Shown piece after piece: positions 33,681 to 50,338 of a stretch of 64,000 nt of DNA. The DNA comes from an uncultured Tateyamaria sp. (GTDB lineage: Bacteria; Pseudomonadota; Alphaproteobacteria; Rhodobacterales; Rhodobacteraceae): the NCBI RefSeq assembly GCF_947487805.1, contig NZ_CANKXW010000006.1:1-64000 (forward strand), written 5' to 3'. Within the stretch, counting starts at the first letter, position 1. Each line of letters starts with the position of its first letter. Below the pieces are notes generated by a model. It searched no databases, was not told the DNA's origin, and saw only the letters and a list, made by a program, of their open reading frames with translations. Made by a program: the position numbers and the translations under genes.

Positions 33681-34307
33681 TCAACGATATTTTTCGATGA
33701 AAGCGTCAATGTCCAGCTCGCGAATGTCGGGCAGGGCGGCCTTATAGGCGTCATAGCTCCAATCCCAAACGGCGATCTCTTGCAAAGCCTCGGCCTGCCT
33801 TTCGGTAAAGCGGCGCTTGATAAAGCGCGCGGGAACGCCGCCAACGACCGTGTAGGGGGCTACATTTTTGGTCACCACTGCGCCGGCACCAATCACAGCG
33901 CCGGTCCCAATCGTGACACCTGCGGTGACGGTAACCCCGTGGCCGATCCAGACATCATGACCGATGGTCACCCAATCGGCCTTTCGCCATTCAAAGAAGT
34001 CATAGTCGTCCTCGCCCAGCCCATAGGCCTCGGCACGGTAGACGCTGTGATGCTGCACCGCGCGCCATGTCGGGTGATTGCCTGGGTTGATGCGTGTGGA
34101 ATTGGCGATGGAGCACATCTTGCCGATCGTCGTCCAAACCACATGGCAGTCCTTGGTGATGTAGGACCAATCGCCCATCGATCCGGACCGCAGCATCGTG
34201 CCCTTACCGACCTCGGTCCATGCGCCCAGCTCGAAATCCCGGACCATCGCGCCCTCTTGGATCGTCGGGCTCTCACTCAGTGGGGTTTTTGATCCGGCGC
34301 CGCTCAT
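33681..34307 (-). CDS. Phosphonate-cluster hexapeptide-repeat acetyltransferase
   Basis: A 208-aa left-handed beta-helix acyltransferase, recognised by stacked hexapeptide repeats ('[45 protein letters not shown]') and '[29 protein letters not shown]'. This is the chloramphenicol-acetyltransferase-like protein found in many phn operons. Its acceptor has not been settled, to my knowledge. It lies between the phosphotransferase and the GNAT gene. Confidence 0.88.
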
Positions 34308-34399: not shown

Positions 34400-35203
34400 C
34401 TAAAGCGCCTTCCAAAGCGCCCCGCCGGCGGCCCTCTCCCAAGTGGCCTCATCAAGGTCCAGCCGGTCGCGGAAGGCTGCGCGCGCGGCGCCCTCAAAGA
34501 TCGTCCAGTAGGGCACCAGATCGCTTGATGGATCGCCCACGCCACAAAGGCCAAAGTCGAGAAGCCCGGCAAATCGGCCTGCTTGCATCAGGATGTTGCC
34601 TTCGGACATATCGCCATGCAACCAAAGCCCCGGCGCGTCCCAGTGACTGGCGCGCGCGCGATCCCAGATCGTTTTAGCGGCCTGGCGCTGTGGCTCGTTA
34701 AGCGTGGCAATCAGGTCCCGCGTCTCCGTGTCGTAGGCGCCCAGATCGCCGCCCCGGTGGAAGTTCTGCGCGCCTGCGGGCGGTGCGCCATCGGTGGGCA
34801 CAGCCTGCAGCGTCAGAAGCGCGGCGGCCAGAGCCTCGGCCAGCACCGCGTCCTGGCGCAGCGTGGGGTCGCCTTCGTCCAGGGTTGCGCCGTCGCGCCA
34901 GGCGAAAACCATCCACTGGAAGGGATAGCCCGCGCCGGGCGTGCCGACGGCAAGTGGCTTGGGCACCGTATAGGGCAACGCCTGTGCCAGTTTCGGCAGC
35001 CATGTTGCTTCTTTCGAGATATTTGCCGCGTAGCGCTCTGCTGATGGCATGCGGATGCCCATCTTGGTGCCGAGCCGGAAGGTCCGGTTATCCCAACCGC
35101 CCGGGCGCACCGGCGTGATCTCGAGGCCCCCCCAATCCGGGAATTGCGACAAGATCAATGCTTTGACCGTCTCGGGTGAGATGTCCAAACGGTCGTCCGT
35201 CAC
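34400..35203 (-). CDS. Aminoglycoside phosphotransferase-like kinase
   Basis: A 267-aa APH/choline-kinase fold protein: 'RPGGWDNRTFRLG' (nucleotide loop), 'WLHGDMSEGNILM' (catalytic HGD-x4-N), 'AGLLDFGLCGVGDPSSDLVPYW' (metal-binding D). It ends at 'GGALWKAL', where APH homologues as I recall them continue a little further, so the C-terminus may be slightly truncated. It lies 10 bp after phnE in the same direction. It may phosphorylate a small molecule of the pathway or be a resistance-type gene; the sequence does not decide. Confidence 0.8.
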   Translation of the reverse strand: MTDDRLDISPETVKALILSQFPDWGGLEITPVRPGGWDNRTFRLGTKMGIRMPSAERYAANISKEATWLPKLAQALPYTVPKPLAVGTPGAGYPFQWMVFAWRDGATLDEGDPTLRQDAVLAEALAAALLTLQAVPTDGAPPAGAQNFHRGGDLGAYDTETRDLIATLNEPQRQAAKTIWDRARASHWDAPGLWLHGDMSEGNILMQAGRFAGLLDFGLCGVGDPSSDLVPYWTIFEGAARAAFRDRLDLDEATWERAAGGALWKAL

Positions 35204-35213: not shown

Positions 35214-36074
35214 TTACTTCGCGAGATCGGCCATCCCGATCAGCCGCGTGCGGATCAGGCCGGAGAAATAGTCGACGACGTAGACCAACGCGATAATGAG
35301 AAAGATGATCGTCCAGACCTGATCCCAAAAGAGGCCCGCAATCCGGTCCGACAGCATGAACCCGATGCCCCCTGCGCCCACGATGCCAAGGATCGTTGAG
35401 GAGCGGACGTTTGATTCAAAATTGTAGAGAATGATCGACAGATGCACCGGCAGGACCTGCGGCATGATCCCATACAGGATCGCCTGCAAGCGTGAGCCGC
35501 CCGAAGCCACGACCCCTTCAACGGGGCGTTTGGATGTGTTTTCGAGGGCTTCGGAGAAGAGTTTTCCGAACGTGCCGATCTCGGACACCGCGATGGCAAG
35601 GACGCCCGCAAGCGGACCAAGGCCAAAGGCGCGGATGAAGATCAGCGCGAGGATCAGTATTTCAAAGGCACGAATGATGTCATAGCCACGCCGTGCGGTA
35701 TGGCGGACCCAGAAAATCCGCGTGATGTTCTTGGCCCCCAGAAACGAGATCGGAAAGGCGATGATCAGTCCGAGGATGGTCCCAAGGAAGGCCATGGCAA
35801 CCGTTTCGCCAAGCGCCTGAAACACTTCGACCCATTCTGGCCAGGTTTCCCACAGGTGAGGGGGAAACATGAAAGACAAAACCGTGCCCAGGCGCTGAAG
35901 CCCGACCCAGATGCGCGCGGGCGCAAAGTTGAAGTCATAAAGGCACCAGGCAAAAAGCCCGACGAACAGCACCCAAAGCCCGATCTTGCGGGCGCGCACG
36001 GCGGGTGCGTCACGAAAGGCGCGGGGGTGTTGATCCATCAGGGTTTTGATGTCGGTATCCGTCGGAAGCGTCAT
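35214..36074 (-). CDS. phnE: PhnE-type permease 2
   Basis: A 286-aa permease with about six transmembrane segments and the PhnE coupling region 'NTSKRPVEGVVASGGSRLQAILYGIMPQVLPVHLS', followed by 'SSTILGIVGAGGIGFMLSDRI'. It overlaps the first permease gene by 4 nt. The two probably form a heterodimer served by PhnC (38015) and PhnD (37064). Confidence 0.9.
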   Translation of the reverse strand: MTLPTDTDIKTLMDQHPRAFRDAPAVRARKIGLWVLFVGLFAWCLYDFNFAPARIWVGLQRLGTVLSFMFPPHLWETWPEWVEVFQALGETVAMAFLGTILGLIIAFPISFLGAKNITRIFWVRHTARRGYDIIRAFEILILALIFIRAFGLGPLAGVLAIAVSEIGTFGKLFSEALENTSKRPVEGVVASGGSRLQAILYGIMPQVLPVHLSIILYNFESNVRSSTILGIVGAGGIGFMLSDRIAGLFWDQVWTIIFLIIALVYVVDYFSGLIRTRLIGMADLAK

Positions 36075-37003
36075 GTCGCAGGCCCCTTCTCAAGTCCGAT
36101 AACGCGATGGCGCAGCTTTTCCGAGCCGTAGTCGATGACAATCACTGTCACGAAGATGATCACAAACAGGGCCGACAGGTCCGTATATTCCTGCAAGGAC
36201 AGCGCCTCGCGGAATTCCTGGCCGAGGCCGCCAGCGCCCACATAGCCGATGATGGACGACGAGCGCACGTTGATCTCGAACCGCAGCAACGTGTAGCTGA
36301 TGATGTTGGGCATCACCTGTGGCACCGCCGCGTACCGGATTTGGTCGAACCATGTGCCGCCCGCGGCTTTGACGCCTTCGAGTGGTCGCATGTCGATGTT
36401 TTCGTTCACTTCAGAGTATAGCTTGCCCAAGGCCCCAGTCGTGTGCAGCCCGATGGCCAGTACGCCAGCCATGGGGCCAACTGAGAAGCAGAAAACAAAG
36501 ATCAGCGCCCAGACCAATTCGGGCACCGTGCGTGCGATCTCAAGATACCGGCGGCACACCCAAAGCACCCACTTCTTGGGCGCCAGATTGCGTGAGGCTG
36601 GGAAGGACATCAAGAAACCGCCGATGACCCCCAATGTGGTGCCCATAAAGGCGATCAGAACCGTCTCAATCAGCAGGTTCAACCAGACTTTCCAGCGCCA
36701 GAACCATTCGGCCAGGTCCGCCCCGAGGCTATCCCAACGCAGGACCGGGAGTGTCTTTTCGATGAACTCGCCAAGGCGCGGCAGGCCCGCCGGAATGATC
36801 CAGCGCCATTCGCGAGAGCCGTCAACGTTTGTTACCTGCGTGACCTTGAAAAAGTCGCCCAGCCAGGCCGAGAAGGCAAAGAAGGCAAAGAAGAGGACAC
36901 TGGCAATCAACCAGCCGATTTTCGCCCGCCGTCTTTGCGTGGCGTAATCCAACTCAAATTGGTCCATCGGACGCAAAGGCGTCACGTCGGCAAGCGCGGT
37001 CAT
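36071..37003 (-). CDS. phnE: PhnE-type permease 1
   Basis: A 310-aa permease with 'NIDMRPLEGVKAAGGTWFDQIRYAAVPQVMPNIISY' and 'SSSIIGYVGAGGLGQEFREAL', both standard PhnE features. A long periplasmic segment (DFFKVTQVTNVDGSREWRWIIPAG) lies between the first two membrane helices. I chose ATG 37003 (after GGGGATC) over an ATG five codons upstream. It follows phnD after an intercistronic hairpin. Confidence 0.9.
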   Translation of the reverse strand: MTALADVTPLRPMDQFELDYATQRRRAKIGWLIASVLFFAFFAFSAWLGDFFKVTQVTNVDGSREWRWIIPAGLPRLGEFIEKTLPVLRWDSLGADLAEWFWRWKVWLNLLIETVLIAFMGTTLGVIGGFLMSFPASRNLAPKKWVLWVCRRYLEIARTVPELVWALIFVFCFSVGPMAGVLAIGLHTTGALGKLYSEVNENIDMRPLEGVKAAGGTWFDQIRYAAVPQVMPNIISYTLLRFEINVRSSSIIGYVGAGGLGQEFREALSLQEYTDLSALFVIIFVTVIVIDYGSEKLRHRVIGLEKGPAT

Positions 37004-37025
37004 GTCAGAGATCCCCAAGAAACGA

Positions 37026-37063: not shown

Positions 37064-37972
37064 TTAAGAGCGGCGCTGCTTTTTTAGCCAATCGCGCATG
37101 TCCACGATCCACTGATACCGCTCGTGGGTGGCAGGCTGCCAATCAATCTGCGGGTTTGGCGTGCCTTCGACTTCGCCAATCATCATTTTGAAGGCTTCTG
37201 GATCTTTCTCGGCCACGTCCAAAACCAGCTGCTGCATGGTGTCTTTCAGACCCTGTGGCAGGTTCGCACGCGCGGTGAACGGGCCGGAAGTGATCTCGGG
37301 GCTTTCCCAGATTGGGCAGATTTGGCCCTCGGTGATCATCTCTTTCTCGATCATGCGCTGCCAGCGGCCATCGGTGGCGTTGTTCTGCCATGTTGCGGCG
37401 GCGTCAAACGTGCCTTGGGCCACGCCTGCAACACCGGCCTCATGCGAACCAGAGAAGGGGATGGCCGAGAAGAAGGTTTTGGGATCAACTTCCTTGGCGA
37501 TGTTGAAATAGGGCACAGCATAGCCCGAGGTGCTGTCCGGGTCGGCAAAAGCGAGAACCTTGCCTTCCAGATCGGACAGCTTTTCATAGCCGTCTTCGCA
37601 GCGCGTCACGACGACCGAGAAGTAACCTGACGAGCCGTCCTGACGGATCCGCGTCACCAGCGGCTCAACCGCGCCATCGGTGGCGGTGTAGGCTGCGGCA
37701 TAGGAGGAAGAGCCCAGGAAGGCAAATTCGATCTGATCCGCGCCAAGCGCCTGGATCACACCGTCATAGGCACCGGCCGTGAAGATTTCGACTTCGACGC
37801 CCAGTTCGCGCTCAAGATATTCCTCGAACGGGGTGTAGCGCGCGATCCGGTCTTTTTCGTTTTCACCGGACAGAATGCCGAACTTGATGACTTGATAGTC
37901 TTCTTTCCAGTCGTCGGCGACAGCAGACGTGGCAAGCACAGCGGCCACAGCAGTTGTAGTGAGGTATTTCAT
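37064..37972 (-). CDS. phnD: Phosphonate-binding protein PhnD
   Basis: A 302-aa periplasmic protein. Signal peptide MKYLTTTAVAAVLATSAVA. Family features: 'IKFGILSGENEKDRIARYTPFEEYLERELGVEVEIFTAGAYDGVIQALGADQIEFAFLGSSSYAAAY', 'GYFSVVVTRCEDGYEKLSDLEGKVLAFADPDSTSGYAVP' and 'SGSHEAGVAGVAQGTFDAAATW'. It binds phosphonates for PhnC-PhnE. It lies 42 bp after phnC. Confidence 0.93.
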   Translation of the reverse strand: MKYLTTTAVAAVLATSAVADDWKEDYQVIKFGILSGENEKDRIARYTPFEEYLERELGVEVEIFTAGAYDGVIQALGADQIEFAFLGSSSYAAAYTATDGAVEPLVTRIRQDGSSGYFSVVVTRCEDGYEKLSDLEGKVLAFADPDSTSGYAVPYFNIAKEVDPKTFFSAIPFSGSHEAGVAGVAQGTFDAAATWQNNATDGRWQRMIEKEMITEGQICPIWESPEITSGPFTARANLPQGLKDTMQQLVLDVAEKDPEAFKMMIGEVEGTPNPQIDWQPATHERYQWIVDMRDWLKKQRRS

Positions 37973-38014: not shown

Positions 38015-38821
38015 TCAGGCGGGCAGCGCGATCGACTGTGTGGACGTCACCGCCTCATTGAATTCTCTCAGGCCATCGAGGCCATAAATATCACGCACAA
38101 CGTCGTCGGTCAGCTGCGCGGCGGACCCGTCAAAAAAGACCCGGCCATTGCGCATCGCGATGATCCGGTCGCAATAGGCGCGCGCTGTATCCAGCGTGTG
38201 CAGGTTCACCAGAACGGTCAGGCCGTCTTCTTGGTTGATCTGGCGCAGGCCATCCATAACCAGTGTTGCATTTGCGGGATCAAGCGAGGCAATAGGTTCA
38301 TCGGCCAGCATGATCTTTGGCTGCTGCACAAGAGCTTTTGCAATCGCGACGCGCTGTTGTTGGCCGCCCGACAGCGTACCCGCGCGTTGCAGTGCCTGCG
38401 GCACCAGGTCCAACCGGTCCAACGCTTGCAAGGCCATCGCGCGTTCCGCATCCGTGAACTGCATGGCCATGGAGCTGAGGAAACCATGCTCGGCCAGACG
38501 ACCTATCAGCACGTTGGTCAAAACGTCCAGGCGATCCACGAGGTTGAACTGCTGAAAGATCATCGCGCAGTCGCGCCGCCAATTGCGCAGGGCTTTTCCG
38601 CGAAGGCTCGTAATCTCGGCCTCTCCAAACGAAATCGACCCCATGGTGGGGTCGATCAGGCGATTGATGAGGCGGAGCATGGTTGACTTTCCGGCGCCAG
38701 AGCGCCCGATCACGCCGACAAATTGACCAGGCTCGATCTTGAGCGTGACGTCATCGACGGCGCGCGTCTCGTCAAAGAGTTTAGAGACACCGGTGAGGGT
38801 TAGGGCAGCAGCTGCGGTCAT
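38015..38821 (-). CDS. phnC: Phosphonate ABC ATPase PhnC
   Basis: A 268-aa ATPase: Walker [10 protein letters not shown], '[25 protein letters not shown]' (PhnC-type Q-loop region), signature [15 protein letters not shown], Walker B '[12 protein letters not shown]' and H-loop '[10 protein letters not shown]'. It begins the transporter half of the cluster, 79 bp after phnM, and has its own PhnF-type operator 5 bp upstream of the start, so it can be controlled separately from phnF-M. Confidence 0.93.
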
Positions 38822-38900: not shown

Positions 38901-40064
38901 CTACGCTACGGCGGCAACTGCTGAATGTTCGGCAGTTGTTAGCCCAGATCCGTTAGAGAAGATGATTTCTCCGGCCCTAAACGTCTGGACGACACGGTCA
39001 CTGGCATCGACCACAGCCAAATCAGCGCGTTTTCCTATCGCGATTTCTCCCCGGTCTTTAAGGCCGAGCGCCTTGGCCGGGTTCTTCGAGGCGAGGCGCA
39101 CTGCGCCAACCAAGCCATCGGCATCGGTTTTTGACAGGGCACGAATGGCAGGCAACATCGCCGCCGGGTGATAGTCGGCCGCAAGAATGTGCAGCAAATC
39201 TGCTGCATGGGCGTCGCGTGCCGACAGGTTACCCGAGTAGCTTTTTCCACGCATTGCATTGGGCGCGCCCATGGCAATCATCAAACCGCGTTGGTCAGCG
39301 ATCTTTGCTGCCTCCATGGTGACAGGAAATTCAGCTATCACGACGCCGATATCAGCCATCAAGTGCGCTTTCTCGACAGTATCGTCATCATGGCTGGCCA
39401 TCGCGACGTCATGAGAGGTGCAGAGCTTTGAGATCCGTTCAAGGTTTTCAAGAACCTGTTCAGCGGGGACCGCATCCTTGATACGACGTGCAACTTGGGC
39501 GCGTGCCTGTTCCTCGCTCAGACCGCCCTTCATCCGATTGGCGACGAGGGTTTCGACATTGCGATACTGACCTTGGCCGGGTGTGTGATCCATGACGGAC
39601 ACAAGATCGACAGCTCTGGCGGCCAGCAAACCGTCAAGCGCATCAATTGCCGCTGTGTATGTCATGTCAAAACGGGCGTGTATGCGGTGATCAACGCGCA
39701 AGTCTCGGATGTTGTCTTTGAGCGCGCGGATAATTGCGGAGGTATGCTCAAATGAACGCCGTTCCCCATCGACCGCCGTGCGCGAGAATGACACGCCTGC
39801 ATAGGCGGTCGTCACCCCAGCGGCGGCAAGGCGCGCATCAAGATGACCCACGGCGACGTCCATCGGAAAATCAACCTTGGGGCGCGGTTCAAGCTCCAAC
39901 TCGATCATGTCGCCATGCATGTCGATGAGACCCGGGAACACGGTAAAGCCGGAAGGTTGCCCCGCGCTCTCGGTGATCTCGGTGATCACGCCGTTTTCAA
40001 TACGCAGGCTGCCATTGTCGATGATGCGATCTGCCAGGATCAGTTTTACGTCAGAGAGCCACAT
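38901..40064 (-). CDS. phnM: PhnM, triphosphoribosyl-phosphonate diphosphatase
   Basis: A 387-aa amidohydrolase-fold enzyme that removes pyrophosphate from 5-triphosphoribosyl 1-phosphonate in the C-P lyase pathway. Marks: 'FPGLIDMHGDMIELELEPRPKVDFPMD', 'SVMDHTPGQGQYRNVE', 'MASHDDDTVEKAHLM', 'GAPNAMRGKSYSGNLSARDA', 'LAADYHPAAML'. The 'MDHTPGQGQ' segment marks it as the canonical member; the other two PhnM-like proteins lack it. It overlaps phnL by 14 nt. Confidence 0.93.
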   Translation of the reverse strand: MWLSDVKLILADRIIDNGSLRIENGVITEITESAGQPSGFTVFPGLIDMHGDMIELELEPRPKVDFPMDVAVGHLDARLAAAGVTTAYAGVSFSRTAVDGERRSFEHTSAIIRALKDNIRDLRVDHRIHARFDMTYTAAIDALDGLLAARAVDLVSVMDHTPGQGQYRNVETLVANRMKGGLSEEQARAQVARRIKDAVPAEQVLENLERISKLCTSHDVAMASHDDDTVEKAHLMADIGVVIAEFPVTMEAAKIADQRGLMIAMGAPNAMRGKSYSGNLSARDAHAADLLHILAADYHPAAMLPAIRALSKTDADGLVGAVRLASKNPAKALGLKDRGEIAIGKRADLAVVDASDRVVQTFRAGEIIFSNGSGLTTAEHSAVAAVA

Positions 40065-40770
40065 CTTCTCGTTCCTCGATCTCAGTGTGTTCCGGTGTCA
40101 GATCAACCACGCGGTCGATCAGATGCATGACATCGTCGGGGTGGTGAAACACGCCGATCATGGCGGTGCCCTGATCTTTGAGTTCTTGAAGGCGTGCCAC
40201 CAAGGCTCCGCGTGCGTTCACATCAAGTGAAGCCGTTGGCTCGTCCAGCATCAACAGTTTCTGCGGCAGAATTAGCGCACGCGCCAGGTTGACCTTTTGC
40301 TGCTCGCCGCCTGAAAACGTCGTGGGGTAGGCGGCCCAGAGGTCTGGTTTGACCCCAAAGGTCTCCAAAGCACGGCGCGCTTTGTTCAGAGCGGCGTCGC
40401 TGTCCCACCCGGCAAGGCGCAAGGGTTCAGCCACAATCGCTTCGGCACTTACGCGGGGCCGTGCGGTCAGGAACTGCGTGACAAAGCCGATCTCTGTGCG
40501 CCGCAGATGAGCAATGTCCACATCCGCCGCGCACGCGAGATCGATCAAGCCATGGCTGGAATGGAACCGGATCTCTCCGGACAACGGCAAGTAGGACCGG
40601 TAGAGGGTCCTGAGCAATGTAGACTTGCCCGCACCATTTGCGCCTTTCAACAAGACAAACTCGCCCGCAGCGACGTTGAACGAGATATCCTCGAACGCGC
40701 CGATCTCTGTGCCCAGGTGATGCAGGGAGAAGCCTTTGGTCAGACCCTGAATTTCCAAAACCTGTGTCAT
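40051..40770 (-). CDS. phnL: PhnL, ABC-type ATPase of the C-P lyase complex
   Basis: A 239-aa ABC ATPase without membrane partners: Walker A GANGAGKST, 'IGFVTQFLTARPRVSAEAIVAEPL' (PhnL-type Q-loop), signature FSGGEQQKVNLARAL, Walker B 'LLMLDEPTASLD', H-loop 'VFHHPDD'. PhnL binds the PhnGHIJ-PhnK core in E. coli. It overlaps phnK by 4 nt. Confidence 0.92.
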   Translation of the reverse strand: MTQVLEIQGLTKGFSLHHLGTEIGAFEDISFNVAAGEFVLLKGANGAGKSTLLRTLYRSYLPLSGEIRFHSSHGLIDLACAADVDIAHLRRTEIGFVTQFLTARPRVSAEAIVAEPLRLAGWDSDAALNKARRALETFGVKPDLWAAYPTTFSGGEQQKVNLARALILPQKLLMLDEPTASLDVNARGALVARLQELKDQGTAMIGVFHHPDDVMHLIDRVVDLTPEHTEIEEREDVAL

Positions 40771-41564
40771 AGCTTTGCGTGTACCAGTTGTTGCGTGTAG
40801 GGGTGTTGAGGGTCTTGGAAGATTTGGTCAGCCAGACCGGTTTCGACCACCTCTCCCCGCCGCATGACCATAACGCGGTCCGCGAGCGTGCGTATGACAC
40901 CCAGATCGTGGCTGACGATGACCATGGTGATCTGCCGGTCCTGTTGGAGCCGTTTCAATGTATCCAGCACCAGCGCCTGCACACTGACATCAAGGCCCGT
41001 TGTCGGCTCATCCAGCAGCAAAAGCGCGGGTTCCAGTGCGATGGCCTTGGCCAGTTGCACCCTTTGTTGCATGCCGCCGGACAGTTCAATCGGCGGGGCG
41101 TCCAAGCGGTCCAGTGGAAATTCTGACGCATTAAGCGCGTCTGTCGCCGCTTGGCGCAGCGTGGCAAAGCTGCGCTCGCCCGCGACCAGCAGACGTTCCG
41201 CGACATTCCCCGAAGAGGAATGCTTCATCAGCAAACCCAAATGCGGGTTTTGATAGACGATGCCAATCTTGGTGGCGCACAGCATCCGGCGGGCGAAGCG
41301 GTCGAGTTTGAACAAATTGCCGGAGACATCGGGCAGGTCGAGCGTGTAGCTGCCTTCATCCGGGATTTCCTCAAGGTTCATCATCCGCAAAAGCGTTGAT
41401 TTCCCCGATCCGCTTTCACCAACAATTCCAATCACTTCGCCCGGATGGGCATGCGCTGAAACGTTGCGCACGGCCTGCACGTGTCCGTAAGATTTGGACA
41501 CGCCTTTCACGTCCAGCAGGGGCCGCGTTTCGACAATACGCGGGGCTTCAAGCATCAGGGTCAT
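40767..41564 (-). CDS. phnK: PhnK, ABC-type ATPase of the C-P lyase complex
   Basis: A 265-aa ATPase: Walker A GESGSGKST, 'IGIVYQNPHLGLLMKHSSSGNVAERLL', signature LSGGMQQRVQLAKAI, Walker B 'LLLLDEPTTGLD' and H-loop 'IVSHDLG'. In E. coli PhnK docks on PhnJ. It overlaps phnJ by 4 nt. Confidence 0.92.
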   Translation of the reverse strand: MTLMLEAPRIVETRPLLDVKGVSKSYGHVQAVRNVSAHAHPGEVIGIVGESGSGKSTLLRMMNLEEIPDEGSYTLDLPDVSGNLFKLDRFARRMLCATKIGIVYQNPHLGLLMKHSSSGNVAERLLVAGERSFATLRQAATDALNASEFPLDRLDAPPIELSGGMQQRVQLAKAIALEPALLLLDEPTTGLDVSVQALVLDTLKRLQQDRQITMVIVSHDLGVIRTLADRVMVMRRGEVVETGLADQIFQDPQHPYTQQLVHAKL

Positions 41565-42475
41565 TGCGGCATCTCCCCGTCTTTGTACCAGGTTTCGCCG
41601 CGTGTTTCGGCCTCGCGGTCATTTGCGCGAATGGTCTTCACGCCCCATTCGCTGTCCGAGACCTCAAAGGCAGAGCTGCCGTCATCCTGTGGGATTTCGT
41701 TCATGAAAAAGCCTTTGGTTCCCGATCGCGTACAGGTCAGGGCTCCATGCTCTTCGATTTTGTAGGGCACGTCCGAGAACACCAGCGGCTCGACCCGTGT
41801 ATAGGGTGGGACGGCAAAGATGCGTTTTTCGCGCCCCGCCGACAGGATCGTCAGATGCTTGGCCATGTGCAACTTGGGCACATCCCAACGGGGGATGGGC
41901 GAGGGGGTCATCACGTGACGCCCATGCACAAGGCTGGGATAGCTGGCCCCCTGCATGACGCGGCCCGAGCGCACGATCTGCTCATAAAGTTGCAGCCACA
42001 TCCGCCCGTAATCCGCATCGGCATGCATCTGGCGCGCGATAGACATGTTGGGCTGAACCGAGCGCAAGGGTTCGGGGTTCGGCACCTGCAGAACAAGCAC
42101 CTGATCTTCTCGCAAAATCTCTTCGGGGATCCGGTGACGAGACTGGATGAGATCCGCCTCCAGCGTGTCCATCGTCGTGGGCGTGCCCGCCACTCGCGCG
42201 ATGAACCGGCGGATTGAGGCGGCGTTCACGCTGTCGTCGGCACCCTGGTCGATCACCTTTACCCGCGTTTGCGGGTTCACAAGCGTCAGCGAAACTTGCA
42301 AACCCCCTGTGCCCCAGCCGCGCGCCATCGGCACCTCGCGGCTGGCGTAAGGCATCTGGCATCCGGGCACGGCCACGGATTTGAGGATCTTGCGTCTCAG
42401 CTCGCGCTTGGCCGAGCCGTCAAGGAAGCCATAGCTCATCGCTTCCCAAGGTTTTGTCAGGGTTGAAAGGCTCAT
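41561..42475 (-). CDS. phnJ: PhnJ homologue lacking the canonical cluster cysteines
   Basis: A 304-aa PhnJ-family protein. It keeps the N-terminal block with the glycyl site, 'AVPGCQMPYASREVPMARGWGTGG' (Gly38), and 'VKVIDQGADDSVNAASIRRF', 'IQSRHRIPEE', 'LVLQVPNPEPLR' and 'AGREKRIFAVPPYTRVEPL'. Canonical PhnJ then has C-x2-C-x21-C-x5-C, which holds the 4Fe-4S cluster and the catalytic thiyl cysteine. Here the region reads 'LTCTRSGTKGFFMNEI ... FEVSDSEWG': only the first cysteine (C248) remains. The second is Ser251, the third falls on Val272 and the fourth on Gly278. I rechecked the DNA here and saw no frameshift. Radical C-P cleavage by the known mechanism is therefore doubtful. Overlaps phnI and phnK by 4 nt each. 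Confidence 0.9.
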   Translation of the reverse strand: MSLSTLTKPWEAMSYGFLDGSAKRELRRKILKSVAVPGCQMPYASREVPMARGWGTGGLQVSLTLVNPQTRVKVIDQGADDSVNAASIRRFIARVAGTPTTMDTLEADLIQSRHRIPEEILREDQVLVLQVPNPEPLRSVQPNMSIARQMHADADYGRMWLQLYEQIVRSGRVMQGASYPSLVHGRHVMTPSPIPRWDVPKLHMAKHLTILSAGREKRIFAVPPYTRVEPLVFSDVPYKIEEHGALTCTRSGTKGFFMNEIPQDDGSSAFEVSDSEWGVKTIRANDREAETRGETWYKDGEMPQ

Positions 42476-43569
42476 TCCGCCGGTTCGCTTTTTGTCTGCC
42501 CTACCGCTTCGCTGCTTGAGGGCTGTGTGTGTTTCGCTGCCTTTTTCGCCTTAGCGTCGCGAATGGCGTCCAGGGACGACTGGAAGGTCACGTAATGAGG
42601 CAGCTTGAAATGGATGCAGAAGCCGGAACTTTCGACGCCTTCGGTATGGTAGAGGAAGAATTCCTCTTCGGTCGCCGAACCTTTCTCGGCGCCGGGGCTG
42701 TTGAGATCGAGCGTCGCGGCGGCGATGCATTTGACCTCGTTCCAGCCAAAGGTCGCGCCGTAGCCGATCCCCAGTTTTTCGCCCTTCTTGTCGACCACTT
42801 CGGCTTGCGACACTTTCACCCGTCCAGCCGAGAATTGCCGCCCATCGGGATGGGTAACCGCGATCTCGGCCTCGGCCAGTCGCAATTCGTTCACCGTGGG
42901 ATGCGCCTGTCCGTAGCCGCGCATCGCAGCATAGCCAAGCGCCAGAACACCGCCGGTTTCCGCACGCGCAAGGCTTTGCAGCGTATGGGCGCGTTTGGAC
43001 GGAAACAGCAGCGGCTCCCGGGTCAAATCCGGTATTTCGTTGCCTTTGGTCGCATCGTCCGCAGGCGGGTCGAGAAGGTCATTTTCCGCCTGCCACGCGC
43101 TCACGCTGGGCTGGTAGGCGGGTGACGGTTCGGCTGCGGGCTCAACAGGCTCCGGCGCGTAGGTTTCGCCTTGCAAGACGTCTGTCGCCAGAATGCGATG
43201 CGCGTAATCCAGTGTCGGCCCAAGGACCTGCCCGCCGGGAATGTCTTTGAACGCTGCTGAAATGCGGCGATGCGTGAAAAGGGTGTCTTGTTCGATGGGG
43301 GTCGCGACCTGCAATCGAGGCTGCGTCGTGCGCCACGCGCGCAGAAGCAACACAGCTTCATACAGCTCACCACCGGTTTGCGCCAAGGCCAATGCGGCAA
43401 GGTCTTCATCATACAGAGATGCTTCGCCCATGACCCGGTCGATCAGGTAGGGCAGGCTCTGCTTAACCTCGTTCACGCGGTTACGGTCAAAGCCCCCCAT
43501 CTCTTCGCGAAAAAGCCTCTCAGATTGTTCGATGGCCCGTTCGCCACCACGTGTTGCCACGTAAGCCAT
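42472..43569 (-). CDS. phnI: PhnI, C-P lyase nucleosidase subunit, divergent
   Basis: A 365-aa PhnI-family protein. PhnI with PhnG/H/L transfers a phosphonate to the ribose of ATP in place of adenine. Marks: 'VATRGGERAIEQSERLF', 'LIDRVMGEASLYDEDLAALALAQTGGELYEAVLLLRAWRTT', 'RRISAAFKDIPGGQVLGPTLDYAHRIL', 'GVLALGYAAMRGYGQAHPTVNELR', 'FKLPHYVTFQSSLDAIR'. The central region (140-185) and the C-terminal tail (HTQPSSSEAVGQTKSEPAE) are unlike what I recall of typical PhnI, so the operon appears divergent as a whole. It follows phnH after a 34-bp gap carrying a repeat also found in its own 3' end. Confidence 0.88.
   Translation of the reverse strand: MAYVATRGGERAIEQSERLFREEMGGFDRNRVNEVKQSLPYLIDRVMGEASLYDEDLAALALAQTGGELYEAVLLLRAWRTTQPRLQVATPIEQDTLFTHRRISAAFKDIPGGQVLGPTLDYAHRILATDVLQGETYAPEPVEPAAEPSPAYQPSVSAWQAENDLLDPPADDATKGNEIPDLTREPLLFPSKRAHTLQSLARAETGGVLALGYAAMRGYGQAHPTVNELRLAEAEIAVTHPDGRQFSAGRVKVSQAEVVDKKGEKLGIGYGATFGWNEVKCIAAATLDLNSPGAEKGSATEEEFFLYHTEGVESSGFCIHFKLPHYVTFQSSLDAIRDAKAKKAAKHTQPSSSEAVGQTKSEPAE
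42498..42523 (-). repeat. 26-bp hairpin repeat, copy 1 (inside phnI)
   Basis: On the plus strand, arms GCCCT and AGGGC enclose an inner GC-TTC-GC hairpin. It matches copy 2 (43577-43602) at 21 of 26 positions; four of the five differences are paired, compensating changes. It encodes part of the phnI tail (SSSEAVG). Confidence 0.5.
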
Positions 43570-43603: not shown

Positions 43604-44140
43604 TCACAGAACCTCCACAGTCGTTGAGCGCGGCACGCCGATGACCTGATCCTCATCCAAAAGGAACAGTTCAAAACCCATGGGATACCTCATATGAGAC
43701 ATGCGAGCGGCCCAGAACCCGTCCGGCAGGCCGTCAACTTGAACTGTTACGGATCCATCGACGCCGGGACCGGTCAGGCGCAGTGTCTGACCCGTTCCCA
43801 AACGCGCGCGAATGATGATCGTCGCACCGTCATCGGGGTAAAAGTCACTGCCGGTTGCGATCTGTACCAGCGGTTCAATGCCCGCCATCGTTCCCAAAAA
43901 GACGTGATCGGCGTGTTCGATGTCGGTCAACTCGGCCCCTGTCCGCATGATCTCCGGCATAAGCAGCGGGTCGGCCGAATGCACCCGGCATTCGCGGTCG
44001 AGCAGGGCGGCAATGATGGATGCCTCGCCCGGCTCGGGCAGGCTGCGCGGCAGGCCGGGGCGGCTAAGCGCCCAGAGCAACGCATCAAAGGCTGTGTTGT
44101 CGCGCGTCTCTGACGAGCTGGGGGCTGGGGTGGCCAACAT
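43604..44140 (-). CDS. phnH: PhnH, C-P lyase core subunit
   Basis: A 178-aa PhnH: 'ETRDNTAFDALLWALSRPGLPRSLPEPGE' near the N-terminus, 'ALLDRECRVHS' and 'GTMAGIEPLVQIATGSDFYPDDGATIIIRA', then 'LRLTGPGVDG', 'GFWAARMSHMRYPMGFELFLLDEDQVIGVPRST' at the end, a PhnH hallmark. It forms the PhnGHIJ core. It overlaps phnG by 1 nt. Confidence 0.9.
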   Translation of the reverse strand: MLATPAPSSSETRDNTAFDALLWALSRPGLPRSLPEPGEASIIAALLDRECRVHSADPLLMPEIMRTGAELTDIEHADHVFLGTMAGIEPLVQIATGSDFYPDDGATIIIRARLGTGQTLRLTGPGVDGSVTVQVDGLPDGFWAARMSHMRYPMGFELFLLDEDQVIGVPRSTTVEVL

Positions 44141-44547
44141 CAGAAGGTCTCCATGTTCACACGGGTCGCCTCCACCCGGCGCAGGACATCTTCGTCCGCC
44201 TGTGCAAGTGCTGCGGCCTCGGCGTCGCAGAAAGCCGCGCAGTCGTCCGTGCGCACATTGCTTGTCAGGGCCAGGTCGATCAGCGCCATGGCCATCGACG
44301 CCTCCAGATCGTGCCCGCGTCGCATCCCATAGCCCTGGGCGTCACCTTTGCGAATATGCGCTTCGCTCATCAGCACTTCGCCCAAATGAAAAGCGACGCC
44401 CCCGGCTGTGTCGCGTATCGGCAGCATCACGAGACCGCTGCGCGATTGCAGAACTTCGATTTCGCCGAGATCCGGGATGAGCGTTTCCGCGAAACTCTTG
44501 AGTTTAGCTGCGTCGGCGCGGGCAAGCGTGCCCAAAGCGTCATCCAT
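44140..44547 (-). CDS. phnG: PhnG, C-P lyase core subunit
   Basis: A 135-aa PhnG: 'DLGEIEVLQSRSGLVMLPIRDTAGGVAFHLGEVLMSEAHIRKGDAQGYGMRRGHDLEASMAMALIDLAL'. The 'GEVL..EA.V' and 'G.G...G.D...A...A..D' patterns are those of PhnG. Its start overlaps phnF by 8 nt. Confidence 0.92.
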   Translation of the reverse strand: MDDALGTLARADAAKLKSFAETLIPDLGEIEVLQSRSGLVMLPIRDTAGGVAFHLGEVLMSEAHIRKGDAQGYGMRRGHDLEASMAMALIDLALTSNVRTDDCAAFCDAEAAALAQADEDVLRRVEATRVNMETF

Positions 44548-45256
44548 CGGACTGCTCCATTGTAAAGGTCACGCGCGCGGCTGACCAAATCACCCGGCTG
44601 GTTGAAATCGGGGTCCCATCCGGCGTCGCGTCGATTGCGGTGACGACAAGCACCGGCACATCCACATGTTGTTTGAGGGTCTTGGCCTCATCAGGTTTCG
44701 CGGATCGCGAATAGATCGAGGTGTGTAGCCGCACGTAATCTTCGATCCCGAAAGAGCGATAGGTGTCAGTCGTCGACCCAAGAACGTCACGACGCTCCGC
44801 AAAATCGGGGAAGCGTTCGGCGCAATGATATGCGCTGCCAAACGCAACCGGCACATCGTTGGCCAAGGTTATCCGCTGGGATTCAAGAACCTGCGCGCCA
44901 GAATTGAGAAGCAACGCTTGCGCAATCTCGTCAGGTGCCGCAACACGCACAGCCGAGACAAGCTGGCTGGTCACATCAACCCCTTGCGGGATCAGGTTGC
45001 GCCGCAGCCTCGTGCGTTTGCCGATCTGGTAGGTCAGCCGAGGCGTGTCAGCAACAAAGGTGCCACGCCCTTGCTCAATGCTGATCTTGCCTTCGCGCGC
45101 CAAGGCTTCCAGCGCACGGCGCACGGAATGCCGACCAATCTCAAATCGATCCGCCAGTTGCAATTCCGTCGGCAATTGATCACCCGCGGACAACCGCCCG
45201 GAGCGAATGTCACGTGAGATCTCGTCTCGAATTATGGTCCAGTTTTCGCGCGTCAT
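44540..45256 (-). CDS. phnF: PhnF, GntR/HutC-family repressor
   Basis: A 238-aa regulator with an N-terminal winged helix ('GDQLPTELQLADRFEIGRHSVRRALEALAREGKISIEQGRGTFV') and a C-terminal UTRA ligand domain ('VAFGSAYHCAERFPDFAERRDVLGSTTDTYRSFGIEDY...'). PhnF regulates phn genes in response to phosphonates or intermediates. It is the first gene of the phnFGHIJKLM transcript. A palindrome 6-21 bp upstream is its likely operator and a Pho-box lies just beyond it. Confidence 0.92.
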   Translation of the reverse strand: MTRENWTIIRDEISRDIRSGRLSAGDQLPTELQLADRFEIGRHSVRRALEALAREGKISIEQGRGTFVADTPRLTYQIGKRTRLRRNLIPQGVDVTSQLVSAVRVAAPDEIAQALLLNSGAQVLESQRITLANDVPVAFGSAYHCAERFPDFAERRDVLGSTTDTYRSFGIEDYVRLHTSIYSRSAKPDEAKTLKQHVDVPVLVVTAIDATPDGTPISTSRVIWSAARVTFTMEQSDG

Positions 45257-45400: not shown

Positions 45401-46180
45401 TTAAAGGGCGAAACTCTGCGAGGCATCCGCGAAGTCGTGCAAATGAACGGTAACCTGATCGTTGCCGAGCAAAACGACTCCATAGGCCGGCGGTTCGAAA
45501 TTGCCTTGGATGCGATCCGCTGGCGCATCAAGGTCCAAAGCCACCTGATGGTTCAGCCCACGCATGCACGAATAGCTGATACCACACCAATTGCCCCAGA
45601 TCGCCCGGTGCACATGGCCGAAAAACAGATGGCGGATGCGGGCCTTGTGGGGGGCGATTACTTCGTAGAATGGTTCGGCGTCCTGCATCATGATGGCATC
45701 CATCGCCTTGATCCCGACCGCAAAGGGCGGGTGGTGCATGAACACAAAGACCGGGTCGGGCGTCTCTAGTTGCTGCGCCAGCCAAGTAAGGCGCGCAGCG
45801 CAATAGGCGCCTGCATGGGTGCCCCGCGCCTTGGTGTCGAGCAGCAGGAAGCGGCCATGTGGCGTCTCAATTGCGGTTTGGACAAAGCCGTTTTCATCGC
45901 GCGGCACGTCAGGAAAGGTCTGCATCAAAGACGGCGTATCATCATGGTTGCCGATCATCAGATGTACGGGCATCGTCAGTTGCCGTATTTCGTCTGAAAA
46001 ACGCGCATAAGCGTGGCCGTCGCCCCAATGTGTCATGTCACCGGTCACAATGACAAAATCCGCATCGCCATGTTCGGCATTGATCGACGCAACGGCGCGG
46101 GCCAACCGCTCGGCCGGATCCTGACCATAGAGCAGACCCTCACCGATCACATGGGGATCTGTCAGGTGGATGAATTTCAT
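45401..46180 (-). CDS. Calcineurin-like phosphodiesterase 1
   Basis: A 259-aa metallophosphoesterase with all metal motifs: 'HLTDPHV' (D-x-H), 'VIVTGDMTHWG' (GD), 'LMIGNHDD' (GNHD), 'FMHHPPF' (H) and 'LFFGHVHRAIW' (GHxH). It resembles the GpdQ/CpdA group that cleaves phosphodiesters such as glycerophosphodiesters or cyclic nucleotides. No signal peptide, so it acts in the cytoplasm. It overlaps the next phosphodiesterase gene by 4 nt and ends the operon that starts with the ABC ATPase at 51493. Confidence 0.9.
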   Translation of the reverse strand: MKFIHLTDPHVIGEGLLYGQDPAERLARAVASINAEHGDADFVIVTGDMTHWGDGHAYARFSDEIRQLTMPVHLMIGNHDDTPSLMQTFPDVPRDENGFVQTAIETPHGRFLLLDTKARGTHAGAYCAARLTWLAQQLETPDPVFVFMHHPPFAVGIKAMDAIMMQDAEPFYEVIAPHKARIRHLFFGHVHRAIWGNWCGISYSCMRGLNHQVALDLDAPADRIQGNFEPPAYGVVLLGNDQVTVHLHDFADASQSFAL

Positions 46181-47004
46181 TCCGCAGCCACCGGTTTGGC
46201 CCAATCTTCCCATCCGGTCCCCGAAGAGAACACCGGACCGTCCCATGTGAAGGGAATGTCGTGGATGACGGTCATGTCTTCGCGTGCTTCGATGATCGCA
46301 AAAGACGGAGCCATAGGGCCCCCATGGAGCAGTTCGGTCTCCGTAAAGTCTGGCAGGGATTGATTGCCGGTCGACCGGACAGAGGCAAAGGGAATGCCGC
46401 AATAGGTCCCGGTGCAGATCGCATGGATGTGGCCAAAGTGCAGATAGTCGATCTTGGCGGCATGACGTTTCAACAGCGCGGCAAAAGCCGGACGGTCGGC
46501 CTCAACCAGTGCGATCTTATCCTCGGCCGGTTGGCCCAACGTCATAACGTTATGGTGCATAAACAGGCGCGCGCGCGTGCAGCCCTTCAATTGCGCGTCA
46601 AGCCAAGCAATGCGATCCGCACCGAAATGCCCGGCATGGGTGCGCGGCGCAGTGGTATCAAGATAGAGCAGGCGTGTGCCACCTACGTCTTCGGCATAGT
46701 TCACATATCCATTCTCATCGTGCGGTTGATCGGGGAAGGCGCTTAAAAAATTGGCGCGATCATCGTGGTTGCCCATCAGCAAGCGCACGGGGCAGGGGAG
46801 GTCGACAAGCGCCTCTTTCAGTGTCGCATAGGCCTGCGGCTCGCCCCAGTGCGTGAGGTCTCCGGTAATGATGATCCGGTCGGCGTCTTGGTGTCTCAAG
46901 CGCACCTCGTCCAACGCTTGAGCAAACCGTCGATGCGGATCGAGGCCACCCATGCGTTCACCGGGAACTGTCAGGTGAATGTCGGAAATATGCACGAGTT
47001 TCAT
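46177..47004 (-). CDS. Calcineurin-like phosphodiesterase 2
   Basis: A 275-aa paralogue of the neighbouring enzyme: 'HISDIHLT', 'IIITGDLTHWGEPQAYA', 'LLMGNHDDR', 'FMHHNVM' and 'LHFGHIHAICTG'. Both carry 'TRAHAGxxxADRxAWLDAQL'-type middle sections. It follows the binding-protein gene after an intercistronic hairpin. Likely hydrolyses phosphodiesters imported by the adjacent Ugp-like system. Confidence 0.9.
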   Translation of the reverse strand: MKLVHISDIHLTVPGERMGGLDPHRRFAQALDEVRLRHQDADRIIITGDLTHWGEPQAYATLKEALVDLPCPVRLLMGNHDDRANFLSAFPDQPHDENGYVNYAEDVGGTRLLYLDTTAPRTHAGHFGADRIAWLDAQLKGCTRARLFMHHNVMTLGQPAEDKIALVEADRPAFAALLKRHAAKIDYLHFGHIHAICTGTYCGIPFASVRSTGNQSLPDFTETELLHGGPMAPSFAIIEAREDMTVIHDIPFTWDGPVFSSGTGWEDWAKPVAAE

Positions 47005-47064: not shown

Positions 47065-48312
47065 TTAGCCGTTTGGCAGCAGGTCAGCGATTTCTTCGAC
47101 CAACTCTTCTTGCAGCTCTTTCATGTCGGTGGCGTCGCCCGTGACGATGCGCTCGATCCCGTCATAGATCACTTGGGTGATCGCCAGACCATTGTCGCCG
47201 GGATAGGCCAGCCAGTCGCGCAGCAGCGGCAACTGGTCCACGGCGGTCTGCTTGTTTGGGTTCTGCTCGTAGAAGTCGGCGAGAATGATCTCGTTAGCCG
47301 CCTTGTTGGGGGGCATGTAGCCGGTTGTCTTGGCCACTTCGGCAGCACCGTCACCGGAGGTGATGTATTTCAGCCAGGTCCAGGCTGCTTCACGCACCTT
47401 CGGATCATCCGAGGTCGAGGTCAGCATCGCCGCGTTGCCGCCAGCGGGAAGACCTTTTGGCGTCTCTCCGAGACCGGGGAACGGGCCGGTCACCAGCTCA
47501 AAGTCACCCTGAGAGCGTTCGACCGCACCCAAAGCAGAGGTGGACCAGAACATCATGCCGACGTCGCCCGCGGAAAAGGATGACAGGGCCGCCTTCCATT
47601 CGAGGTTCTGCATTTCACACTCGGTGAAGATGTCCTGCATCTGCTCAAGTGCGACCAGAGCCTCGGGGCTGTCCATGGTCACGCGGCCGTCTTTGACGAT
47701 GGCGCTGTCCTGGCTCCACAACAAGGCCTGCATGAACCAGTTGCCGGTGATGTTCCAGCCCCAGAAGATCGGGTTGTCGATGCCGTTGGCCTTCATGGTC
47801 TTGCAAGCCGCAATAACCTCGTCCCATGTTGTCGGCAGCTCTTCGATGCCGCCTGCGCGCAGGATGTCCATGTTGTAGTACCCAACCGGCAGCGAGATCG
47901 AGAACGGCAGGCCATAGACTTCGTCGCCGAAGGTCGACAGCGACAGCATCGCCTGATGGTAGCCGTCTTTTCCGAAATCCGCTTCGCCCGCGATGAAGGG
48001 CTCAAGCGATTGTGCGATGCCCTTGTCGATCAGCGGCGCCTGACGGTTCAGACCCTGCATGGAGACGTCGGGCAGGTTGCCCGCAACCGCTTCACGCAGA
48101 ACCGTGTTGGTGGCGTCTTCGTAGGACTCGTAGGTCGCGCGGAACTTCACTTCGATATTTGGGTGCGCTTCTTTGAACCCGGGCATCATTGCCTCGTAGG
48201 TCACATCAAAGAGGTGGCTGTAGGGATAGGCGAACTCGATCGTCACCTTGTCTTCGGCGAAAACGGCGGTGGCAGACAGAGCCAAAGCTATTGCAGTTAG
48301 GGTATGTTTCAT
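47065..48312 (-). CDS. Ugp-like ABC solute-binding protein 1
   Basis: A 415-aa periplasmic protein of the UgpB/carbohydrate family 1. Signal peptide MKHTLTAIALALSATAVFA, then 'VTIEFAYPYSHLFDVTYEAMMPGFKEAHPNIEV'. Later come 'GLPFSISLPVGYYNMDILRAGG', 'LPAGGNAAMLTSTSDD' and 'KTTGYMPPNKAA', characteristic of glycerol-3-phosphate-type binders. The ATG at 48312 gives the signal peptide. Since two phosphodiesterases follow, the ligand may be a glycerophosphodiester or other phosphodiester; that is inference. Confidence 0.88.
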   Translation of the reverse strand: MKHTLTAIALALSATAVFAEDKVTIEFAYPYSHLFDVTYEAMMPGFKEAHPNIEVKFRATYESYEDATNTVLREAVAGNLPDVSMQGLNRQAPLIDKGIAQSLEPFIAGEADFGKDGYHQAMLSLSTFGDEVYGLPFSISLPVGYYNMDILRAGGIEELPTTWDEVIAACKTMKANGIDNPIFWGWNITGNWFMQALLWSQDSAIVKDGRVTMDSPEALVALEQMQDIFTECEMQNLEWKAALSSFSAGDVGMMFWSTSALGAVERSQGDFELVTGPFPGLGETPKGLPAGGNAAMLTSTSDDPKVREAAWTWLKYITSGDGAAEVAKTTGYMPPNKAANEIILADFYEQNPNKQTAVDQLPLLRDWLAYPGDNGLAITQVIYDGIERIVTGDATDMKELQEELVEEIADLLPNG

Positions 48313-48409
48313 TACATCTACTCCAGTTGTTGGGGCTGACGGTTTGGCGATTGGCAGACCCCAGTGATGAGCCCATACGGGCGACGAGTAGGGTGGGAGC
48401 AATCCCACC

Positions 48410-49375
48410 CTATTTCATTCCAGACAGCGTGATCCCCTCGATAAAGCGGCGCTGCGCCAGCAGGAAAGCGACAATGAGCGGTGTGACGATCACAGTGGCC
48501 GTGGCCATCATCGGACCAAAGAACGACCCGTCCCCATCGCCCTTGAACTCGCGCAGACCCAAGGGGGGCGTGAACAGATCCCGGTTTCCGGTCACAACGA
48601 TGCGCGGCCAGAAATAGTCGTTCCAATGGGCCACAATGCTGAAGATCGCAAAGGCCAAAAGCGCGGGGATCGCAGTGGGCAGCATGACCCGCCAGACGAT
48701 GGCGAATTCCGACATCCCGTCCATGCGCGCCGCGTCGATCAGGTCGTCCGGCACGGTCATGAAGAACTGGCGCATCAGGAATATCCCGAAGACCGAGATT
48801 GTCCAGGGAACGACCAATGCGGCGTAGGTGTTGGTCAGCCCCAGCTTGGCCAGCATGATGTAGAGCGGCAGCGCGATGGCATGCACAGGGATCAGCAGGC
48901 AGAACAGCACGAGGCCAAACACCGCCTCACGCCCCCAGAATTTGAGCTTGGCCAATGCATAGGCAGCGGGCAAAGCCACAACGATCTGGATCAGGAAAAT
49001 CGAGACAGTGACGATGACACCGTTCAGCAAGTAGCGTATCAAAGGCGCCTCGGTGAAGGCCTTGGAATAGTTAAACACCGCGGGCCGCATCGAACAGTCC
49101 GCTTCCGTTTCCGCCAACAGTGCCGCCTGAACGCCAGCGTCATCTTGGCCGGGAAACCGCGTGCGTGCCGCTTCGATATCCGCACGGCCTGGTTGGCGCA
49201 GCGCGACACAGCGCGGATCGATCATCATCTCCTGACGCCCGAAAAAACCGCCGATCCCCCGGTCAATTTCGCCAGGACTTTTGAACGAATAACTGACCAT
49301 CATATAAAACGGCGCCAGCACGATGATTGCGCCAAGGATCAGCACCAGATGTTTCCACCAATCCCGCGTCATCAA
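48410..49375 (-). CDS. Ugp-like ABC permease (UgpE type) 1
   Basis: A 321-aa permease with six membrane segments and EAA-type loop 'IDAARMDGMSEFAIVWRVMLPTAIPALLAF'. An unusually long loop (IGGFFGRQEMMIDPRCVALRQPGRADIEAARTRFPG...) lies between helix 1 and 2, where typical family members are shorter. It overlaps the UgpA-type gene by 4 nt. Confidence 0.9.
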   Translation of the reverse strand: MMTRDWWKHLVLILGAIIVLAPFYMMVSYSFKSPGEIDRGIGGFFGRQEMMIDPRCVALRQPGRADIEAARTRFPGQDDAGVQAALLAETEADCSMRPAVFNYSKAFTEAPLIRYLLNGVIVTVSIFLIQIVVALPAAYALAKLKFWGREAVFGLVLFCLLIPVHAIALPLYIMLAKLGLTNTYAALVVPWTISVFGIFLMRQFFMTVPDDLIDAARMDGMSEFAIVWRVMLPTAIPALLAFAIFSIVAHWNDYFWPRIVVTGNRDLFTPPLGLREFKGDGDGSFFGPMMATATVIVTPLIVAFLLAQRRFIEGITLSGMK

Positions 49376-50337: not shown

Positions 50338-50338
50338 G

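Follow-up and report, generated by a model that had tools for sequence, protein, structure and literature searches.

Cysteine-poor PhnJ in a C-P-lyase-like operon of Tateyamaria and its relatives

Can a carbon-phosphorus (C-P) lyase system work without the cysteines on which its accepted mechanism rests? The question is raised by the phnJ gene of an uncultured Tateyamaria sp. (Rhodobacteraceae), located in the first 64,000 nucleotides of contig NZ_CANKXW010000006.1 (assembly GCF_947487805.1). This whole stretch is here called the window, and approximately 32-52 kb of it were studied. That cysteine-poor PhnJ exists and is under selection is near certain, and the view that it belongs to a functional and widespread form of C-P lyase system that breaks the central rule of the family is well supported. 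As for its chemistry, we give about an even chance to a distinct functional PhnJ class in a complete C-P-lyase-like system of its own, in which the bond between phosphorus and the organic group (P-X) would be cleaved at a zinc site without a radical.

Residues lost and kept in the cysteine-poor PhnJ

The gene in question is:

41561..42475, minus strand: phnJ, cysteine-poor class (C248, S251, V272 and G278 at the four cysteine positions; C39 beside the glycyl residue G38)

The open reading frame is intact, encoding 304 amino acids from an ATG start to a stop codon at 41561-41563, and the product belongs to the PhnJ family, being matched by Pfam PhnJ (PF06007) at 385 bits. Alignment with E. coli PhnJ (PDB 7z15/4xb6; E 1e-79, residues 13-277) equates G38 with Gly32, C39 with Tyr33, R113/H114 with Arg107/His108 and Q130 with Gln124, and at the cysteine positions C248 with Cys241, S251 with Cys244 and V272 with Cys266. 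The pairwise alignment ends one residue short of G278, and its equivalence to Cys272 is taken from family alignments. C248 is thus the sole survivor of the four cysteines (Cys241, Cys244, Cys266 and Cys272) needed for the 4Fe-4S (iron-sulfur, Fe-S) cluster and the thiyl radical, exactly as an earlier note, made from the window sequence alone, had described.

The rows of the family alignment fall into two sets without intermediates, one cysteine-poor (113 rows, 99 distinct) and one with all four cysteines (68 rows, 66 distinct). The four positions read C-S-[V/L/I/A]-G in 112 of the 113 and C-T-L-A in the remaining one, so that the first cysteine is retained in every cysteine-poor row and the other three are gone. 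Such recurrence without intermediates rules out a sequencing error as the cause. The glycyl residue G38 is found in 99/99 distinct variants. Beside it, tyrosine has been replaced by cysteine in 97 of the 99, a change that the earlier note did not mention; the exceptions are loci L115 and L202, and Tyr stands at position 39 also in L237 and Thermus. The idea of C39 as an essential replacement thiol is weakened by these four cases. L115 and L202 are the first branches in one tree, and in a 40-sequence tree they cluster together with L237, the base of the alphaproteobacterial clade being unresolved there. The branching and the tyrosines together fit a loss of the Fe-S ligands that preceded the change at position 39.

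The loss of Cys244, Cys266 and Cys272 should preclude both the 4Fe-4S cluster and the thiyl radical on which the accepted mechanism depends. The earlier note had concluded that the complex either cannot cleave C-P bonds or serves another use, and the part of this that stands is that the classic radical step, dependent on Fe-S and S-adenosylmethionine (SAM), is very likely absent from the variant.

According to the accessible part of PMC9947105, the Fe-S site of the E. coli structure lies approximately 30 Å from the glycyl residue, and there is a separate zinc site with a ligand resembling phosphoribosyl 1,2-cyclic phosphate (PRcP); this ligand sits on PhnJ Arg107, His108 and Gln124, and the zinc ion is held between PhnI His328 and His333, with His219 joining in the open state. 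The equivalents of the PRcP contacts (R113, H114 and Q130) are present in 99/99 distinct variants. Among 100 variant PhnI rows, in which the window's own gene is included twice, the zinc ligand H223 is found in 100 and H320 and H325 in 99, with one gap; the zinc histidines are also present in 66/66 canonical rows. PhnK K55, E186 and H219, presumed to belong to the Walker A, Walker B and H-loop motifs of the ATP-binding cassette (ABC), are kept in 100/100 variant rows, and the PhnM of the window scores above an NCBIfam equivalog cut-off. The residue counts cover PhnI, PhnJ, PhnK and PhnD.

One clade under selection

Of the 394 genomes in the family sample (that of the window included), 203 carry PhnJ by Pfam. 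A gene 75-100% identical to the window phnJ occurs in 24 of the 394, the next best match being at 53%, and the cysteine-poor pattern is seen in all 24. The order sample (292 genomes) contributed six new loci and a partial match (G433), and the class (385) and phylum (398) samples two more, G1013 and G1121, from a different family of the same class; other class and phylum matches score far lower, only the fetched loci among them having been read. Named genomes were scanned with an alignment specific to the C-terminal part of the variant, and the best 80 of 532 related stretches were used (the 80 named loci). Their hosts belong to Rhodobacterales and Hyphomicrobiales, for example Celeribacter, Marivita, Shimia, Pannonibacter, Rhizobium, Devosia, Maritalea and Paenochrobactrum. 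All 79 readable named loci are cysteine-poor; since this set was picked for likeness to the variant and partly overlaps the sampled genomes, 24/394 gives the fairer estimate. Among 215 matching plasmid records, 13 have an identity of 60-80%; eight of these come from Alphaproteobacteria and the other five from Thermus thermophilus (including pVV8, strain HB8). Identity is 59.7% in three further Thermus records. Both of the distinct PhnJ sequences read from Thermus are also cysteine-poor, their four positions being C, T, V or I, and M. In G433 (C2:4688-5347), G157 and G390 some PhnJ matches are partial or fragmentary and may be broken copies or contig ends. G1013 and G1121 have three PhnJ matches each, with approximately 15 kb between the variant and another PhnJ in G1121.

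The earlier note had proposed testing whether the cysteine-poor form is a clade. It is one, with Thermus included: in the 40-sequence tree, which is unrooted, a branch with support 100/98, found in 99% of bootstrap trees, separates the cysteine-poor Alphaproteobacteria and Thermus from the rest. Haloarcula, Mesobacillus and a third PhnJ type retain four cysteines. This third type (L057, L059, L116, L120) is 47-53% identical to the window PhnJ and has a GFGTGG loop, and differs from the variant in having all four cysteines. It has its own PhnI (operons L087 and L088) and occurs in few genomes of the family and phylum.

Pairwise ratios of nonsynonymous to synonymous substitution (dN/dS; Nei-Gojobori, only pairs with dS below 1.5) have a whole-gene median of 0.119 in the variant (312/435 pairs) and 0.150 in canonical phnJ (330/465), and in the C-terminal domain 0.145 (286 pairs) vs. 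0.237 (320 pairs). Twelve residues of that domain are invariant among the 99 distinct alphaproteobacterial variants: H243, C248, R250, M258, N259, E260, P262, E271, S273, D274, S275 and K280. Five of them (H243, M258, N259, P262 and E271) are found in 0/66 distinct canonical rows, R250 is found in 5, K280 in 3 and S275 in 15 of these, while C248, E260, S273 and D274 are common to both forms. By these comparisons the C-terminal domain, the new conservation of which the earlier note did not mention, is remade and not decayed. A decaying or pseudogenised copy, for which the lost catalytic cysteines would speak, is scarcely credible given the median dN/dS of 0.12, recurrent whole operons, a single clade across phyla and the new invariant residues; the earlier note had rightly judged that selection seems to maintain the frame.

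A remade domain could also house another metal or redox site in place of the Fe-S cluster, for instance a mononuclear one using H243, C248, E260, E271 or D274, and bring about oxidative C-P cleavage. The alphaproteobacterial class keeps all of these residues without exception, but only one cysteine is left, H243 and E260 are missing in Thermus, and canonical PhnJ also has E260, S273 and D274. We regard this explanation as improbable, the least probable of those that grant the protein a function.

Operon, canonical paralogue and the end of the pathway

The other genes of the operon and its surroundings are:

44540..45256, minus strand: phnF-type GntR/UTRA regulator
44140..44547, minus strand: phnG
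43604..44140, minus strand: phnH
42472..43569, minus strand: phnI; zinc ligands H223, H320 and H325 (E. coli His219, His328 and His333) kept
40767..41564, minus strand: phnK, non-transport ABC ATPase; motif residues kept
40051..40770, minus strand: phnL, ABC ATPase; named in part from its place in the operon
38901..40064, minus strand: phnM, ribosyl-phosphonate triphosphate diphosphatase; NF011988 above cut-off, TIGR02318 just under its cut-off
38015..38821, minus strand: phnC, transporter ATPase; named from gene order and annotated relatives
37064..37972, minus strand: phnD, substrate-binding protein; residues for the phosphonyl head kept, acidic pair for amine binding absent
36071..37018, minus strand: phnE1, permease; named from gene order and annotated relatives
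35214..36074, minus strand: phnE2, permease; named from gene order and annotated relatives
34400..35203, minus strand: APH-family kinase; slot variable among relatives, membership of the system unsure
33681..34307, minus strand: hexapeptide transferase TIGR03308 (phosphonate-associated); in 60/80 named loci
45401..46177, minus strand: calcineurin-like phosphodiesterase pdeA; neighbour, not core
46177..47004, minus strand: SpdA-like phosphodiesterase pdeB, under the SpdA family cut-off; neighbour, not core
47065..51493, minus strand: ugp-type (CUT1) ABC transporter, four genes, of which the binding protein was tested and the permease and ATPase genes were identified by eye; neighbour, not core

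The full PhnGHIJKLM set thus stands in one operon, in the order phnF-G-H-I-J-K-L-M that the earlier note had given, followed by phnC-D-E-E, the APH-family kinase and the hexapeptide transferase. The order phnF-G-H-I-J-K-L-M-C-D-E-E-hexapeptide recurs over the 80 named loci with gaps from rough gene calling or contig ends (phnJ in 79, phnI in 76, phnH in 73, phnG and phnF in 67 each, phnD in 66 and the hexapeptide gene in 60); genes of the relatives were called by a GC-frame rule, under which low-GC loci (L144, L166, L198) still lose genes. The slot between phnE2 and the hexapeptide gene, filled in the window by the kinase at 34400-35203, is taken in some relatives by an AAA kinase or by a gene of transglutaminase type. 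In L147 (17630-18193) and L187 (17919-18401) the hexapeptide gene is followed by small permease-like genes, two in kind and one of them weakly ArsP-like; the corresponding clusters occur in 8/80 and 7/80 named loci.

The PF06007 search of the window genome (G000) found two PhnJ genes, the variant at 385 bits and one on contig C10 at 476 bits with four cysteines, which makes the variant a paralogue beside a normal C-P lyase; the earlier note did not mention this second gene. A second PhnJ at 467-500 bits, canonical by score, is present in 37 of the 38 named variant genomes searched, the sole exception being Paenochrobactrum gallinarii (G1322), which has the variant only. In the family sample, a single additional PhnJ match is present in 20 of the 24 variant genomes. 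G390 has three in total, of which the variant alone was read, and no other match was found in G074 and G297 (both 99% complete) or in G335 (79% complete, short contig). In six genomes (G230 C10, G250 C3, G080 C14, G305 C28, G317 C21 and G489 C1) variant and canonical phnJ lie within approximately 19-25 kb in a phosphonate island. A second C-P-lyase operon in one genome is likewise formed by the htx C-P lyase of Pseudomonas stutzeri, as given in the accessible part of PMC3463581.

The frequent company of a canonical PhnJ bears on the explanation that the variant is still a radical C-P lyase, G38 being activated in trans by a SAM enzyme or by the canonical PhnJ and the thiyl forming on C39 or C248. 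The second, higher-scoring PhnJ of most hosts (37/38), the invariance of G38 and C248 and the presence of C39 in 97/99 agree with such a role. However, no other PhnJ match exists in G074, G297 and P. gallinarii, tyrosine stays at position 39 in L115, L202, L237 and Thermus, and no radical-SAM-like gene was seen in the clusters common to at least 4 of the 80 named loci, although not every cluster was scanned against the library. We consider this explanation improbable as well, if marginally less so than a replacement metal site.

The C-P lyase pathway ends with the kinase PhnN, which scores over its cut-off in 23 of the 24 variant genomes vs. 1 of 20 chosen genomes listed without phnJ. Among 20 variant genomes, phnN was called within the canonical cluster in 19, and in the twentieth, L224 (poor gene calls), it was placed in the same stretch. 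In three genomes with only the variant, phnN is found close to it: approximately 8 kb from the variant phnJ, beyond the transporter genes, in G074, approximately 3 kb away and adjoining phnF in G297, and adjoining phnF of the variant operon in P. gallinarii. It was found in the stretch read around the variant operon in 0 of the other 79 named loci, and near that operon in 0/37 named genomes with both PhnJ types (stretch 20 kb in 32 of them and 16.8-19.5 kb in five). The comparison of 3/3 with 0/37 gives a Fisher p of 0.0001 with kinship ignored; G335 was excluded from it because of its incompleteness. PhnP over its cut-off was found in 0/24 variant genomes. DUF1045, presumably the RcsF type by a link of names, lies near the variant operon in G074 and G297 and elsewhere in P. 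gallinarii, and is also present in G000. The RcsF type has been connected with PRcP in a review (PMC10574752, accessible part). In G007, a genome without a PhnJ match, phnN and a DUF1045 gene are adjacent (C6:72084-73105), which may be a remnant or reflect an assembly gap.

The position of phnN in the three variant-only genomes suggests that the variant pathway probably still ends in ribose 1,5-bisphosphate, and hence that a P-X bond would be cut without the Fe-S radical. It speaks against a system confined to ribosylation, in which PhnGHI and PhnM would be active, PhnJ would be a scaffold for PhnK and PhnL, and the ribosyl organophosphate would serve detoxification, storage or signalling. The lost radical ligands and the retained PhnI and PhnK residues suit that explanation; the PRcP contacts and the new C-terminal residues, invariant in 99/99, do not, and we find it unlikely, though the strongest of the rivals. 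The related proposal of the earlier note, that only the PhnGHI nucleosidase step is used, is for the same reasons less supported, with PRcP, zinc and PhnK residues kept, phnL and phnM present and phnN near the operon.

Possible chemistry, substrate and meaning

The preferred reading, non-radical cleavage at the zinc site, can be put as a sequence of steps. PhnCDE would import an organophosphorus compound with an uncharged tail, PhnGHI would join it to C1 of the ATP ribose, and PhnM would remove pyrophosphate. ATP hydrolysis by PhnK and PhnL would open and close the complex, and at the PhnI/PhnJ zinc site, with PhnJ His114, the ribose 2'-OH would attack the phosphorus of the ribosyl ester and expel the organic group without a radical, leaving PRcP, which a phosphodiesterase and PhnN would convert to phosphoribosyl pyrophosphate (PRPP). 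On paper the retained parts suffice for such an ionic reaction. An ionic route requires a better leaving group than an alkyl carbanion, namely an alkoxide or activated carbon, and the substrate would accordingly be a phosphate ester or an activated phosphonate. A bolder, tentative version would be a general P-X transesterase, in which ribosylation and the ATP-driven zinc site cut P-O (or activated P-C or P-N) bonds of organophosphates with uncharged tails and pass the phosphorus straight into PRPP; we hold it possible, with a lower chance than the reading just described.

A hint at the tail comes from PhnD (82 variant rows, 68 distinct). Tyr47, Tyr93, Ser127, Thr128, Ser129 and His157, which we take to be the contacts of the phosphonyl head, are kept in 67 or 68 of the 68. 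In E. coli PhnD, Glu177 and Asp205 hold the amine of 2-aminoethylphosphonate (PMC12718374, accessible part). The variant has Asn, Thr or Ser at position 177 in 54/68, and at position 205 Gly in 67/68 and an acidic residue in none; canonical PhnD of the same group has Asp at 177 in 15/15 and Glu at 204 in 14/15. At most, these differences point to a ligand that lacks a cationic tail.

Several observations weigh against the preferred reading. Position 177 of PhnD is Asp in 14/68 distinct variants, and a true phosphonate substrate is still allowed by the retained phnCDE and hexapeptide transferase, both characteristic of phosphonate operons. Easy phosphate esters would hardly need such costly machinery. 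The proximity of phnN was seen in three genomes only, where PhnN could serve another route; the fourth variant-only genome, the incomplete G335, has neither PhnN over the cut-off nor DUF1045, and the stretch read of Thermus pVV8 contains no annotated phnN. DUF1045 occurs in 9/20 control genomes without phnJ and is therefore rejected as a phnJ-specific marker, so that only its position counts. In addition, Thermus does not keep H243, M258 and E260.

The earlier note had looked to the adjacent phosphodiesterases and transporter as the source of substrates. The module is real, but in the form found in the window (ugp-type transporter with calcineurin-like phosphodiesterases) the pde cluster occurs in 7/80 named loci; it is not core and cannot alone define the substrate. 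A TIM-barrel gene is present in 32/80 named loci, often alongside a phosphonate-type transporter and a second phnM. This module also adjoins, in part, canonical clusters (L214, L222, L232) and is thus not variant-specific. A recurrent phnD2-phnC2-phnE2-methyltransferase-phnM2-(MFS)-TIM-barrel module, itself without C-P lyase genes, adjoins the variant operon in L080 (917-6057), L077 (13883-19432), L072 (1-2918) and others. The nearest solved structure to the L077 phnD2, the one binding protein tested, is the phosphite-type PtxB (6e-15), vs. 1.9e-7 for 9lf9, taken here as GpxB. The module as glycerol-1-phosphate transporter GpxBCD (PMC12718374, accessible part) is thereby unsupported. On a Haloarcula plasmid with a four-cysteine PhnJ (L234:13672-15142), phnM is followed by genes for a TIM-barrel protein and a HAD hydrolase, which might replace PhnP and PhnN.

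Compared with the canonical E. coli PhnGHIJKLM (PDB 4XB6, 7Z15-7Z19), the variant shares all core subunits, the Gly32 equivalent, the PRcP and zinc residues, the ABC ATPases, PhnM and a phosphonate-type transporter. It differs in having Ser, Val/Leu/Ile and Gly for Cys244, Cys266 and Cys272, Cys for Tyr33 in most cases and a new conserved C-terminal domain, and is approximately 50% identical to canonical PhnJ of its own family. The T. thermophilus plasmid pVV8 (NC_017767) has a 61% identical, cysteine-poor PhnJ (WP_014677597; C, T, V, M) and a phnCDE-GHIJKLM set with the hexapeptide gene, and in the same region a metallophosphoesterase, a TIM barrel (29-31% to alphaproteobacterial ones) and a CUT1 transporter. 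It differs in keeping Tyr33 and in its C-terminal tail. Its phosphoesterase is of the YmdB family without significant similarity to that of the window, so the two are not supported as counterparts, and the CUT1 binding proteins share only 26%.

No description of cysteine-poor PhnJ was found among the matches listed in the open PMC literature, subscription papers being outside this scope. PMC9381506, in its accessible part, verified genes via catalytically essential residues, a filter by which cysteine-poor genes may have been dropped; in that of PMC11978286, the four cysteines were checked in the PhnJ of that study itself. Plasmid records that annotate the variant gene name it PhnJ C-P-lyase. 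The phnJ gene serves as a marker for methane release from methylphosphonate, and under this annotation variant genes could be wrongly counted as methane producers. The division of labour within C-P lyase is unresolved, and a natural system with the zinc site and ATPase motor and without the Fe-S cysteines would separate its parts. If the preferred reading is true, organophosphorus compounds are probably cleaved by a different, non-radical chemistry in a complex derived from C-P lyase.

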